Origin: Pseudomonadota bacterium
Lineage (GTDB): Bacteria; Chloroflexota; UBA5177
Length of the DNA: 64,000 nt
Direction: 5' to 3'
Assembly (NCBI GenBank): GCA_021324655.1
Contig: JAJPIP010000097.1
Coordinates: forward strand, 1 to 64,000
The notes beneath the pieces are model-generated. The model ran no database searches. It was not told the origin of the DNA and was given only the letters and a program-made list of their open reading frames with translations. Positions 44,225 to 56,781 of this stretch are shown here, piece by piece (the first letter of the stretch is position 1; every line of letters starts with the position of its first letter). The position numbers and the translations under genes were made by a program.

Positions 44225-44246
44225 ACAATTGCCCTCATGCGCAGGG

Positions 44247-44482
44247 TGGCCCTCACCCCCGGCCCCTCTCCCATTGCGATGGGAGAGGGGAGATGTGGTG
44301 CGGGGTGGGCTGGAGATATCACGGTCTCGGTCCCCGTCGCGTCTGAGGACAGCGCGATCTACCTCTCAAGCTTCCCCCTCGCCCACCGCAGTGGGAGAGC
44401 AGCGTGTGAGACCAGGGCCTGCCGCAGGGGTGACAGAGACAGCCCTGGGCGCACACGTTGTTGGGTTAGGGGGTGAGGGCCA
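44247..44482 (+). mobile_element. 236-bp MITE-like element, copy 1
   Basis: Bounded by a perfect 14-bp terminal inverted repeat, TGGCCCTCACCCCC at 44247-44260 and its complement at 44469-44482. It contains an inner palindrome CCCCTCTCCCATTGCGATGG around 44263-44290. Copy 2 (53773-54008) has the same length; both ends are nearly identical and about 50 bp in the middle differ. A spurious frame reads through it (LTPGPSPIAMGEG), a peptide often mis-annotated in draft genomes. No obvious target duplication. Confidence 0.85.
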
Positions 44483-44509
44483 GTCGGGTGAGGGCCGGGT
44501 GGAGGTTGG

Positions 44510-52452: not shown

Positions 52453-53763
52453 ATGGGTCAGGCAAGACGATTTCGCGGGCCGGTGGCGGCGCTCTGTCTG
52501 GCGTCTGCCGCCCTCGCCACCGTGGGAGTAACCGGACATGTCTCTCCGGCCGGCGCCTCCGGGTCACAGCCGGCGAAGGAGACATGCACTCCGAGCATGC
52601 CCGCGGCCACCAGCACCGCGGGCACGCCGGTGGCGCAGGCGAGCAACACCTTCGGCTTCAACCTCTTTCGGCGGCAGTTCGCGGCCGCGCCGCAGAGCGA
52701 CCTGTTCCTGTCACCCCTGAGTGTGGCCGTGGCGCTGGATATGTTGTACGACGGCGCCCGCGGCCGCACGGCGAGTGCCATGGCCCGCACGCTGGCGCTC
52801 GGCACCATGAGCCGGCAGAGCGTGATCGCATCGGCAGCCAGTCTGCTGCACACGCTGCAGATCGGGGAGCCGGCTCCCAGTAATCCGGGTGGTCCCGCGT
52901 TGCAGCCCACCAAGATGCGGGTCGCCAACTCGGTGTGGTCGCGCAGCGGACTGAACTTCACCCCGCAGTTCACCAGCGATCTGCAGCGCTACTTCGGCGC
53001 GCAGGCGCAATCGCTGGACTTCAACTCCTCGGCCGCACCCACCACGATCAATCGATGGGTGAGCTGCGAGACGAACGGGAAGATCACGCAGATCGTGGAC
53101 AGCACTCAGGCGCTCATGATGCTGCTGGTGAACGCCGTGTACTTCGAGGGCGGGTGGACGTACACCTTTGATCCGCGTCTCACGACCAACCAGACATTCA
53201 CGACCGGCACCGGCGCGACGACCCATGTGCGGATGATGCACCAGACGCAGGATTTTGGCTACTATCGTGGCCGCAACGTTCAGGTGCTCACCATGCCGTA
53301 CGGACAGAGCCGGCGGTTCAGCATGGTGGTCGTGCTCCCCAACAAGGGCGTCTCCCTGGCGCAGTTCGCGCCGCGGATGACGCGTGCCAACTGGGGCTAC
53401 TGGGTGAAGCGCACGGCGACAATGGGCTACGGCGATGTGGCCTTCCCCCACATCGATATGACGTACTCGGCCAATCTCACTGCTCCGCTGTCGGCACTGG
53501 GCATGGGTGCCGCGTTCGGATCGCGGGCGGACTTCTCCGGTGTGTGCGCGGAATTCTGCAAAGTGAACGAGGTGCTGCACAAGACGTTCCTGCACGTGGA
53601 CGAGAAGGGCACCACCGCCGCGGCGGTCACCGGCGTCGGGTTAGGCGGCGGCGGGCCGCCTCCGAAGCCGTTCCACTTCATCGCCGATCACCCGTTCTTC
53701 CTGGGGATCCGCGACGGCCGCTCCGGCGCCGTGCTGTTTCTGGGTGCGGTGAATAAACCGTGA
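52453..53763 (+). CDS. Secreted serpin
   Basis: Serine protease inhibitor with signal peptide, 436 residues. Serpin marks: FGFNLFRRQF, LFLSPLSVAVALDMLYDGARG, INRWVSCETNGKITQIVDS, LVNAVYFEGGWTYTFDP and the C-terminal FHFIADHPFFLGIRDG, LFLGAVNKP. The reactive-centre hinge VDEKGTTAAAVTG has the small residues required for inhibition, and the loop continues with GVGLGGGGPPPKP. It therefore looks inhibitory, against an unknown protease. GAGGAGG precedes the ATG. A separate Cys-rich N-terminal insert precedes the domain. Confidence 0.93.
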   Translation: MGQARRFRGPVAALCLASAALATVGVTGHVSPAGASGSQPAKETCTPSMPAATSTAGTPVAQASNTFGFNLFRRQFAAAPQSDLFLSPLSVAVALDMLYDGARGRTASAMARTLALGTMSRQSVIASAASLLHTLQIGEPAPSNPGGPALQPTKMRVANSVWSRSGLNFTPQFTSDLQRYFGAQAQSLDFNSSAAPTTINRWVSCETNGKITQIVDSTQALMMLLVNAVYFEGGWTYTFDPRLTTNQTFTTGTGATTHVRMMHQTQDFGYYRGRNVQVLTMPYGQSRRFSMVVVLPNKGVSLAQFAPRMTRANWGYWVKRTATMGYGDVAFPHIDMTYSANLTAPLSALGMGAAFGSRADFSGVCAEFCKVNEVLHKTFLHVDEKGTTAAAVTGVGLGGGGPPPKPFHFIADHPFFLGIRDGRSGAVLFLGAVNKP

Positions 53764-53772
53764 GGGGATGGG

Positions 53773-54008
53773 TGGCCCTCACCCCCGGCCCCTCTCCCAT
53801 TGCGATGGGAGAGGGGAGGTATGGATCGAGGCAGGCTGGGGAAAGCAGTGCCTTGAGCGTCGAAGGGAATGGGGACAGCGCGATCTGCCTCTCAAGCTTC
53901 CCCCTCGCCCACCGCAGTGGGAGAGCAACGTGTGAGACCAGGGCCTGCCGCAAAGGTTACAGGGAAAGCCCTGGGCGAACACGTTGTTGGGTTAGGGGGT
54001 GAGGGCCA
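53773..54008 (+). mobile_element. 236-bp MITE-like element, copy 2
   Basis: Same ends as copy 1: TGGCCCTCACCCCC and its complement ending at 54008. The inner palindrome and the right 130 bp match copy 1 closely; the segment after the left palindrome differs. It lies between the serpin and the convergent APH gene. Confidence 0.85.
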
Positions 54009-54015
54009 CTCCCTC

Positions 54016-54825
54016 CTACACGCCCAGCAGGCGGAGCGCCTCGCCTGACTGCACCCAGGCTTGCAGCTCGTCTGAGTCCTGCCGCCAGGTTTCGCAGGCT
54101 TCACCGACGGCGTAGATGGCGGCCCATCGGGCGGCGCGCTCGGGATCGTGATTGAGGCGGCGGGCCAGCGCCCGAGCGCGATCGGCGATGCGGCGGGCGG
54201 GTGGATGGTAGGCGGCAAAGAAGCCGATATCGGAGCAGGGATCACCGATCAGCGGCATCGGGTCGATGGCGACGTAGCCGTCGGGGCCGAGCAGGAGATT
54301 CTTGTCGATGAAATCACCGTGCAGGAGGACGTGTTGGCGGGCGGAGGACCATAGCTCGCGGGCGATCGGCCGGATGGCGGGGAGCAGAGACAGGCCGGCA
54401 GTTCCCGGCGCGGCGTTGGCTCTGGCCTCGCGGAGGAATCGGTCGAATGCCGCGGGCTGGGAGGGAAAGGGGTGATCCGGTGGAAGCGGCACCGCATGGA
54501 GATCGGCGAGGATCCCGGCGGCGATGCGCATGGCGTCCTCCTCGTGGTCGGGCGGCAGTGGGGTCGCGGGGACGATCCGCTCGAGCAGAAGGGCTCCTAC
54601 CTCGGCGTCCCAGTCCCGCAGGCGGACGGCGGCCCGGCCGCGCCAGAGCTGGAGGGCGGCCGCTTCGCATTCGGCGGCCATGGAAAGCTTGAGGACGAGA
54701 GCGGTCCCGTTCGCATCGGAGCAGGCAAAGACCGACGACTCGGAGCCGCCGGTGAGCGACGGACCGATCACGAGGTGCCAGCGCTCCCGGCAGCGGTCGA
54801 GCAGGGCCGGATCAGAGGGATGCAT
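54016..54825 (-). CDS. APH-family phosphotransferase (streptomycin 6-kinase-like)
   Basis: Kinase of 269 residues from ATG 54825. Catalytic loop HGDFIDKNLLLGPDG (H-G-D...N), metal motif IDPMPLIGDPCSD, N-lobe Lys region ALVLKLSMAAEC. The order resembles APH(6)/hydroxyurea phosphotransferases, which inactivate aminoglycosides or other hydroxyl compounds; the substrate is not proven. A longer start at 54963 would run through sequence that also encodes the DUF402 stub on the other strand; the shorter start matches the homologous stub at 56107. Confidence 0.85.
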   Translation of the reverse strand: MHPSDPALLDRCRERWHLVIGPSLTGGSESSVFACSDANGTALVLKLSMAAECEAAALQLWRGRAAVRLRDWDAEVGALLLERIVPATPLPPDHEEDAMRIAAGILADLHAVPLPPDHPFPSQPAAFDRFLREARANAAPGTAGLSLLPAIRPIARELWSSARQHVLLHGDFIDKNLLLGPDGYVAIDPMPLIGDPCSDIGFFAAYHPPARRIADRARALARRLNHDPERAARWAAIYAVGEACETWRQDSDELQAWVQSGEALRLLGV

Positions 54826-54880
54826 GCGATTCAGGGGGGGACAGTGATGGAAGGTGCGCTGCAGTCTAGCGATCACTGGG
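54703..54880 (+). repeat. Direct repeat R1 (APH/DUF402 start region)
   Basis: Similar over its length to R2 at 55981-56164, same orientation. It contains the first codons of the intact APH gene, the intergenic region and the first codons of a DUF402 gene. Shared blocks include AAAGACCGACGACTCGG, CGGCAGCGGTCGAGCAGG and GCAGTCTAGCGATC. Similarity stops just after CTGGG at 54880. Confidence 0.8.
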
Positions 54881-54933
54881 TGGTGTCGTCTTCCTTCGAG
54901 GATTTCCCCGCAGATCAACGGTGTCGTTTCTAG
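54847..54933 (+). pseudogene. 5' remnant of a DUF402 gene
   Basis: Reads MEGALQSSDHW then a short unrelated tail to a stop at 54933, 28 codons. The first eleven codons correspond to MDGAMQSSDRW of the intact DUF402 gene at 56131. The rest of the gene is absent and replaced by the Xre-RES segment. Confidence 0.75.
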
Positions 54934-54979
54934 TGTTATATGATGGGGCACATCACCCGGCAAAAGAGGTGAGATAGGC

Positions 54980-55339
54980 GTGGCAATTGAGCAAGCGGCT
55001 CACGACCGTGCGGTTCGCCTGACGGTCCCAGCGATCGTTGGATCGCTCCAGGATGTGCTCGGCCAGCGGCTGGTCGCGGTCCTTGCCGGTGTCAGCGATG
55101 CCAAGGCCGTCGGGAAGTGGGCCAGGGGGGAACGCTCTCCTCATCCTGATGTGGAGCAGCGTCTCCGCCAGTCCTTCCAGATCGTCCAGTTGCTTCTGGA
55201 GCGGGAATCCGCAGACACGGTCCGCGCCTGGATGGTCGGCATGAACCCGGATCTGGAGGACCGGGCGCCGGCGCTCGTCCTTACTGAGGATCCCGTTCGT
55301 GTCCTCCGGGCGGCTCGCGCCTTCCTCGCCACGGGGTGA
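54980..55339 (+). CDS. Xre-like antitoxin of a RES/Xre toxin-antitoxin pair
   Basis: 119 residues, GTG start behind GAGGTGAG. VGSLQDVLGQRLVAVLAGVSDAKAVGKWARGE is the N-terminal helix-turn-helix-like region typical of Xre/DUF2384 antitoxins, and the C-terminal half (VQLLLERESADTVRAWMVGMNPDL then AARAFLATG) is the MbcA/ParS-type toxin-binding region. It would neutralise RES and repress its own promoter. Order antitoxin-toxin is normal for the family. Confidence 0.85.
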   Translation: MAIEQAAHDRAVRLTVPAIVGSLQDVLGQRLVAVLAGVSDAKAVGKWARGERSPHPDVEQRLRQSFQIVQLLLERESADTVRAWMVGMNPDLEDRAPALVLTEDPVRVLRAARAFLATG

Positions 55340-55392
55340 GTCCGGTCTAACGAGCGCGTACGCCGCGGAGTACGTTCTACCGCATCGGCCGG

Positions 55393-55980
55393 TTGCCCGA
55401 TCCCCTCGCCTGGCCGCCGTGGGAGTATGTGGGCAGCGGCCGCTTCGACGATCCATCCGGGGAGTTCCGTGTTCTCTACGCCACAACTCAGCGCCGCGCT
55501 GCCTTCGTCGAGACGTTGGCGCCCTTTCGTGTCTCGGTGGAAGCGCTTGTGGCGTTGCGAGGTGTGAGAGGGACAGAGGAGCCGGTTCACATGCCCGTGG
55601 TACCGCCGGACTGGTACCAGGGACGTGCGGTCGGCCTGTTGCGCATCACCCCGCGCCAGCGTTGGCTCGATCTACGATCCGCGGAGACGCGCGAGGTCCT
55701 GCGCCATGAGTTGGCGCGGACCCTGTTTGACTTCGGCCTCGCGGATCTGGACCTCAGCGGTGTGGTCGGACCGGGGCGGCAACTCACGCAAGCCATCGCC
55801 CGCTGGGCCTACGAACAAGGCTACAACGGCCTCGCCTACAGTAGCCGCCTCGACGCGGCGCTCACCTGCTGGGCCATCTTTGAGGGTGCGATGTTCGAGC
55901 CGGCCGGACCACCCGAGCCGATCTTGTCCGATGACCCAGACCTTCTCAGGGTGGCAAGGCTTTTCGGCCTCGGAGTATGA
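55393..55980 (+). CDS. RES-domain toxin
   Basis: RES proteins degrade NAD+ (MbcT/Res type) and arrest growth. The domain is clear: GSGRFDDPSGEFRVLYATT with the family Arg and Tyr, RRAAFVETL with the Glu, and LAYSSRLDAALTCWAIFEG. 195 residues from TTG 55393. Homology-like sequence TFYRIGRLPDP runs upstream of that TTG in frame to a stop at 55348-55350 without ATG, GTG or TTG, so the true start may be non-standard or the 5' end was damaged. The gene ends exactly where repeat R2 begins. Confidence 0.85.
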   Translation: MPDPLAWPPWEYVGSGRFDDPSGEFRVLYATTQRRAAFVETLAPFRVSVEALVALRGVRGTEEPVHMPVVPPDWYQGRAVGLLRITPRQRWLDLRSAETREVLRHELARTLFDFGLADLDLSGVVGPGRQLTQAIARWAYEQGYNGLAYSSRLDAALTCWAIFEGAMFEPAGPPEPILSDDPDLLRVARLFGLGV

Positions 55981-56107
55981 GGGTCTCGCGCGCAACGGCG
56001 CAAGAGGCAAAGACCGACGACTCGGCGCTGCTACTCACCGGCGGCCCGATCGTGGGGTGCCGACGTTCCCGGCAGCGGTCGAGCAGGGACAGACCGGAGG
56101 GACGTAT
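55981..56107 (-). pseudogene. 5' stub of an APH gene, start codon lost
   Basis: On the minus strand the frame from 56107 reads IRPSGLSLLDRCRERRHPTI, matching MHPSDPALLDRCRERWHLVI of the intact APH. The start codon has become ATA and the frame ends at the RES gene boundary. About 42 codons remain. Confidence 0.78.
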
Positions 56108-56164
56108 GCGATTCAACGGGGGGGGCAGAGATGGACGGTGCGATGCAGTCTAGCGATCGCTGGG
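55981..56164 (+). repeat. Direct repeat R2 (APH/DUF402 start region)
   Basis: Second copy of R1, directly after the RES stop codon. It carries an APH start stub and the true start of the DUF402 gene. Confidence 0.8.
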
Positions 56165-56781
56165 AGTTTGGCCGTGTGATCGTGCTGCAAGAGGTGTGGG
56201 ACGGGAAGCTCTGGTCGGCGCGTCCGGTGCGGGTGGTCGAGGATCGGCCGGACCTGCTGGCCCTGTGGTGTCCCGAGGGAACGCCGGTAAAGGGCCCGAG
56301 CGCTCCGTGGCGTCCGGGCCGATCGGCCGGTCCCGCCTACTTCGTAGCGATGTTCACGCACCGAGATTGGGGTGTCGCCGACTTCGTCTGGCCCACCACG
56401 AACCTCATGCTGATCAGGCCCGGCGAGTGGTACGGGACCTGGGTCTCCTGGACCCGGGAGGGCGAACCGATGGGGTGGTACGTCAACTTCCAGCGCCCCG
56501 TTCGGCGCACCACACGCGGCATTCAGACCATGGATCTGATGCTCGATCTCATCGTCGACCAGGACCGCAGTCTGCACTGGAAGGATGAGGATGAGTTCGC
56601 GGCCCTGACGAACCCGGGGCTCATCGGTGAGTCCGAGGCGGCGCAGGTACGGGAGGCGGCTCGACACGTGCCGGACACTGTGGCGCAAAACAAACCACCG
56701 TTCGGCGAGCCCTGGCACGAGTGGCAGCCCGATCCGGGGTGGGAGGTGCCCACGCTGCCGGAGGGCTGGGATGTTGTGTAA
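56131..56781 (+). CDS. DUF402 protein (FomD/Ntdp-like hydrolase)
   Basis: 216 residues. The DUF402 core is seen as WYVNFQRPVRRTTRGI, then DLMLDLIVDQDRS and WKDEDEF, which supply the acidic metal ligands known from FomD and nucleoside tri-/diphosphatase Ntdp. It likely hydrolyses a nucleotide or nucleotide-conjugate. ATG at 56131 lies in repeat R2, with a G-rich tract upstream serving as ribosome site. Confidence 0.88.
   Translation: MDGAMQSSDRWEFGRVIVLQEVWDGKLWSARPVRVVEDRPDLLALWCPEGTPVKGPSAPWRPGRSAGPAYFVAMFTHRDWGVADFVWPTTNLMLIRPGEWYGTWVSWTREGEPMGWYVNFQRPVRRTTRGIQTMDLMLDLIVDQDRSLHWKDEDEFAALTNPGLIGESEAAQVREAARHVPDTVAQNKPPFGEPWHEWQPDPGWEVPTLPEGWDVV

Follow-up and report, generated by a model that had tools for sequence, protein, structure and literature searches.

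An imported Xre-RES toxin-antitoxin module lies between diverged direct repeats of the start region shared by two divergent genes

The window, a 64,000-nucleotide stretch of contig JAJPIP010000097.1, carries a Xre-RES toxin-antitoxin module between two copies, R1 and R2, of the start region shared by an APH(6)-like kinase gene and a divergent DUF402 gene (Table 1). We consider the best explanation of the locus, with a probability of roughly 55%, to be a single old insertion that duplicated ~180 bp of its target, as one event accounts for both intact genes and both stubs. The ~1.1-kb module, with its own putative operator, would have entered the 21-bp gap between the divergent genes and duplicated the target to leave one copy on each side, with a complete start region kept for APH at the left and for DUF402 at the right. 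The spare partial copies, the DUF402 stub in R1 and the APH stub in R2, would then have decayed, bringing the repeats down to 80% identity. With only 21 bp between the start codons, each promoter probably lies inside the start of the other gene, and the duplication would have spared both. The single step and the manner of duplication are our reading of a locus in which the repeats, the stubs, the import of the module and the evenness with which the differences fall across codon positions can be seen directly.

Table 1. Features of the module, the repeats and the neighbouring genes (window coordinates)
Feature	Position	Strand	Evidence
Intact APH(6)-like phosphotransferase with its 5' end inside R1	54016..54825	-	Pfam APH_6_hur 2.6e-28
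R1, left copy of duplicated segment	54703-54880	.	80.3% identical to R2; no third copy in genome
DUF402 5' stub in R1 (MEGALQSSDHW, then foreign sequence)	54847..54880	+	alignments
Module leader with GGTNG..TTT..GGT element at ~54919-54943	54881..54979	+	alignment with L101-L104
Xre/MbcA-like antitoxin, 119 aa	54980..55339	+	profile of 9 relatives vs MbcA (6fkg_C), E 8e-5
RES-domain toxin, 195 aa	55393..55980	+	Pfam RES 1e-11, above cut-off
APH 5' stub; ATA in place of the start codon, conserved W and GG missing	55970..56107	-	48-57% aa identity to APH residues 1-46
R2, right copy of duplicated segment	55982-56164	.	alignment with R1
DUF402/FomD-like protein, intact, 216 aa	56131..56781	+	Pfam DUF402 4e-13

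Base-by-base alignment bore out the proposal of the first-pass annotation that R1 and R2 are direct repeats of the divergent start region. The two copies share 80.3% identity across 183 alignment columns (E 3e-41 when the 3.8-Mb, 114-contig assembly was searched), R2 contains one 3-nt and one 2-nt insertion relative to R1, and a third copy is absent from the assembly. This identity is beyond background and ends sharply on both sides, as the flanking sequences score within the shuffled range. R1 consists of 41 codons of APH on the minus strand, the 21-bp gap and 11 codons of DUF402 on the plus strand. Judging from the 20% divergence, the repeat is old. An assembly artefact or a chance similarity is very improbable; the assembly is in 114 contigs, but repeats with 20% divergence do not confuse assemblers, the E-value is that given above, and the module is unbroken between the copies. 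The module had also been described as filling the exact interval between the repeats. This is correct at the right, where the RES stop codon (55978-55980) touches R2 (start at 55981/55982), and a slight overstatement at the left, where a 99-nt leader parts R1 from xre.

Each side of the module retains one intact gene and a remnant of the other, as originally annotated. At R1, APH is intact from its ATG at 54825 (complement) and DUF402 is an 11-codon stub from the ATG at 54847; at R2, DUF402 is intact from the ATG at 56131 and APH is a 41-codon stub in which the ATG has become ATA. The kinase also matched NCBIfam APH_6, and the DUF402/FomD-like protein matched NCBIfam FomD (1e-37), in both cases below the cut-off of the model. 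Alignment demonstrated that a W and a GG conserved in the kinases of two other loci (L055 and L056) are present in R1 and gone from R2. The 26 differences between R1 and R2 in the kinase frame fall 10/9/7 at codon positions 1/2/3. Were both copies under selection, with an assumed 70% third-position share, finding 7 of 26 at the third position would have a probability of 7e-6. The lack of a third-position excess thus indicates decay of the APH stub without constraint and suggests that, over most of its existence, it was not under selection.

This spread also bears on the order of events. A tandem duplication of the gene pair or of its start region could have come first, with the module later replacing the inner DUF402 and inner APH by illegitimate recombination and leaving the stubs, and this would yield an identical final map. 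A locus in another genome (L210, G328:C44) is an example of such an arrangement: a RES module whose antitoxin is of the HTH type has an intact ABC-transporter gene on one side and the 3' fragment of a second copy on the other, an order impossible by target duplication. However, such a history requires two or more events, and APH copies that had long been functional would differ mainly at third positions, which these do not. We consider it unlikely and, because the APH stub lacks a third-position excess, favor insertion over an old tandem duplication; of the two routes that the first-pass annotation had left undecided, insertion with a long duplication fits better and tandem duplication less well. 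Insertion has a difficulty of its own, in that a selected R1 and a free R2 would still be expected to give some third-position excess, and the 26 differences contain none.

Two further observations concern the neighbouring genes. The same genome has a second DUF402 gene (L049/L135, G000:C84:17294-17918) that is 47% identical, carries a frameshift or stop, and lies beside another kinase-fold gene. A MITE-like repeat (53760-54022) with 28-nt imperfect terminal inverted repeats adjoins the APH stop codon and is matched in full or in part at 43 places in the genome, one of them at 44244-44485.

Within the insert, xre adjoins res on the upstream side, and the pair at 54980-55980 is, on sequence grounds, a Xre-RES toxin-antitoxin of the MbcTA/ParST kind. 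The RES toxin scored 45.6 bits against PF08808 (cut-off 23.2), and residues R17, Y29, E40, and S151 are invariant across 8 relatives; a RES profile searched against solved structures gave no match. The Xre antitoxin alone had no Pfam match, with weak matches to PF09722 obtained for four of its relatives and none for the window protein itself. PADLOC returned no match. The GGTNG..TTT..GGT element upstream of xre is conserved in an alignment of 5 sequences and is likely the promoter/operator, and a sigma-70 consensus scan of the leader found no promoter. Known RES-Xre toxins act through NAD+ depletion or ADP-ribosylation of a target, and the toxin-antitoxin complex represses its own promoter (PMC12204516). 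The window module most likely works like these pairs, with toxin activity assigned by analogy: free RES would use up NAD+ or modify a target, binding of Xre would block RES, and the pair would repress its own promoter.

The closest relatives of the module are in other Chloroflexota families (RES 64-66%, Xre 71-73% identical), and no RES match was obtained in four other genomes of the same family. DNA homology to four related loci (L101-L104) runs from the operator-like element (~54919) to the RES stop, with none in R1 or R2. As the relatives share the module and nothing outside it, the Xre-RES module is an imported unit. The insert (54881-55980, ~1.1 kb) includes a probable control region of its own, and the genes with family support in this interval are xre and res only, with no transposase or integrase among them. 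For inverted termini, the analysis consisted of a general repeat scan.

The first-pass annotation had proposed that recombination between R1 and R2 would remove the module and restore an intact APH/DUF402 pair. The repeats contain identical runs of 21, 22, 10, and 15 nt. The 21- and 22-nt runs sit inside the kinase gene, where a crossover leaves APH with an ATA start, and only the last ~55 bp of the repeat, with the 15-nt run, allows a crossover that restores both genes. The proposed product is therefore possible on paper, but the longest runs do not yield it and any crossover at 20% divergence is unlikely. Nor did the search of relatives recover the anticipated locus without Xre-RES: none of the contexts examined (2 for APH and about 14 for DUF402, none from the same genus) was an empty site, and in none of them did the two genes form a divergent pair. 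An APH-profile scan of genome contigs for an empty site returned three loci, two of them full matches without DUF402 beside APH. In the genome with a 60% identical APH relative (G002), the serpin and hydrolase neighbours are close together in another order and without APH or DUF402, which is uninformative for synteny. We regard R1 and R2 as a fossil of entry rather than an active excision site.

We surveyed RES loci across the phylum, comprising 120 loci in Chloroflexota (the window and 119 others) from mostly fragmentary assemblies, for bracketing repeats of at least 120 bp and at least 80% identity with a 0.5-4 kb gap. Repeats surrounded RES in 6 of the 120 loci including the window (7 pairs), compared with a single locus, contributing 2 pairs, across 653 kb of control sequence. 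Bracketing as a property of all RES modules was rejected, as ~95% of loci are without any. Two other loci have target-duplication geometry. In L208 (1057-2544) the RES module is flanked by direct repeats of a 373-bp segment from the 3' end of an AHSA1-family gene (90% identity), and in L218 (3515-5474) by direct repeats of a 126-bp segment from the 3' end of an AMP-ligase gene (92%); each segment occurs only twice in its own genome. Other candidates were set aside. The L210 locus described above has the wrong geometry. In L212 (G032:C75), RES forms the C-terminal tip of a protein made of Rhs repeats, next to which the Rhs core is duplicated at 92%, and L276 is located among dispersed repeats. 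The L224 repeats (1391-1465 and 2328-2400) represent a partial second xre copy downstream of res, perhaps the remnant of a tandem module.

The differences between copies, by codon position, are 3/4/19 in L208, although one of its copies is a fragment, and 1/0/3 in L218. As these are mostly silent, both loci may have an origin differing from that of the window, and for L208 at least, a diverged allele integrated by homologous recombination is the better explanation. The window module could likewise have arrived on DNA that carried a related species' APH/DUF402 junction and been added by a single crossover, leaving diverged flanking repeats, which would account for the 20% divergence without great age. 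The even spread in the window is unlike L208, however (Fisher p 0.002); in a functional donor allele, silent sites should hold most of the differences, and no donor was found; for the window this route is quite improbable. Using expectations of ~0.6 to 1.2 loci estimated from the survey repeat densities, three cases of target-duplication geometry gave P 0.02 to 0.12, and L208 and L218 alone, which are independent of the initial finding, gave P 0.11 to 0.34. The enrichment over chance is no more than suggestive. A tentative proposal, which we consider rather unlikely, is that RES modules in general enter genomes without a transposase and with long duplications of the target, the window, L208, and L218 then being three independent cases.

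Insertion of restriction-modification genes with a long target duplication was reportedly described by Nobusato et al. in 2000 and by Furuta et al. in 2010. These genes are reported to insert with long, variable target duplications on the order of 100 bp (PMC3874152, a review, and PMC3031569). The window module resembles them as a selfish unit of toxin and protector that shows no evident transposase or integrase and is enclosed by direct repeats of target sequence of the ~100-bp order. It differs in its Xre-RES cargo and Chloroflexota host, in a target that is a shared divergent start so that both neighbours stay intact, and in that an empty strain is not available for comparison. Like MbcTA, ParST, and the Pseudomonas putida Xre-RES system (PMC12204516), the window has the xre-res order, a RES domain, an antitoxin matching MbcA, and an operator-like element, although its antitoxin is too divergent for Pfam alone. 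RES-Xre modules have not been described with a flanking duplication. As in homologous integration and in genomic islands that restore the end of their target gene, an intact and a partial target copy flank the insert; unlike in these cases, no integrase is seen in the window and two gene starts are duplicated rather than one gene end. The first-pass annotation knew of no such arrangement, which holds for RES modules in the open PMC papers, where we found no report of a flanking target duplication (subscription literature was outside the search), but the phenomenon itself has been described for restriction-modification genes.

The movement of toxin-antitoxin modules between genomes involves no visible mobile elements, and their route of entry is an open question. 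The preserved scar, with both target copies, offers a concrete hypothesis for entry. If it proved true of RES modules as a class, it would point to a general entry route for selfish toxin modules, as has been proposed for restriction-modification genes.
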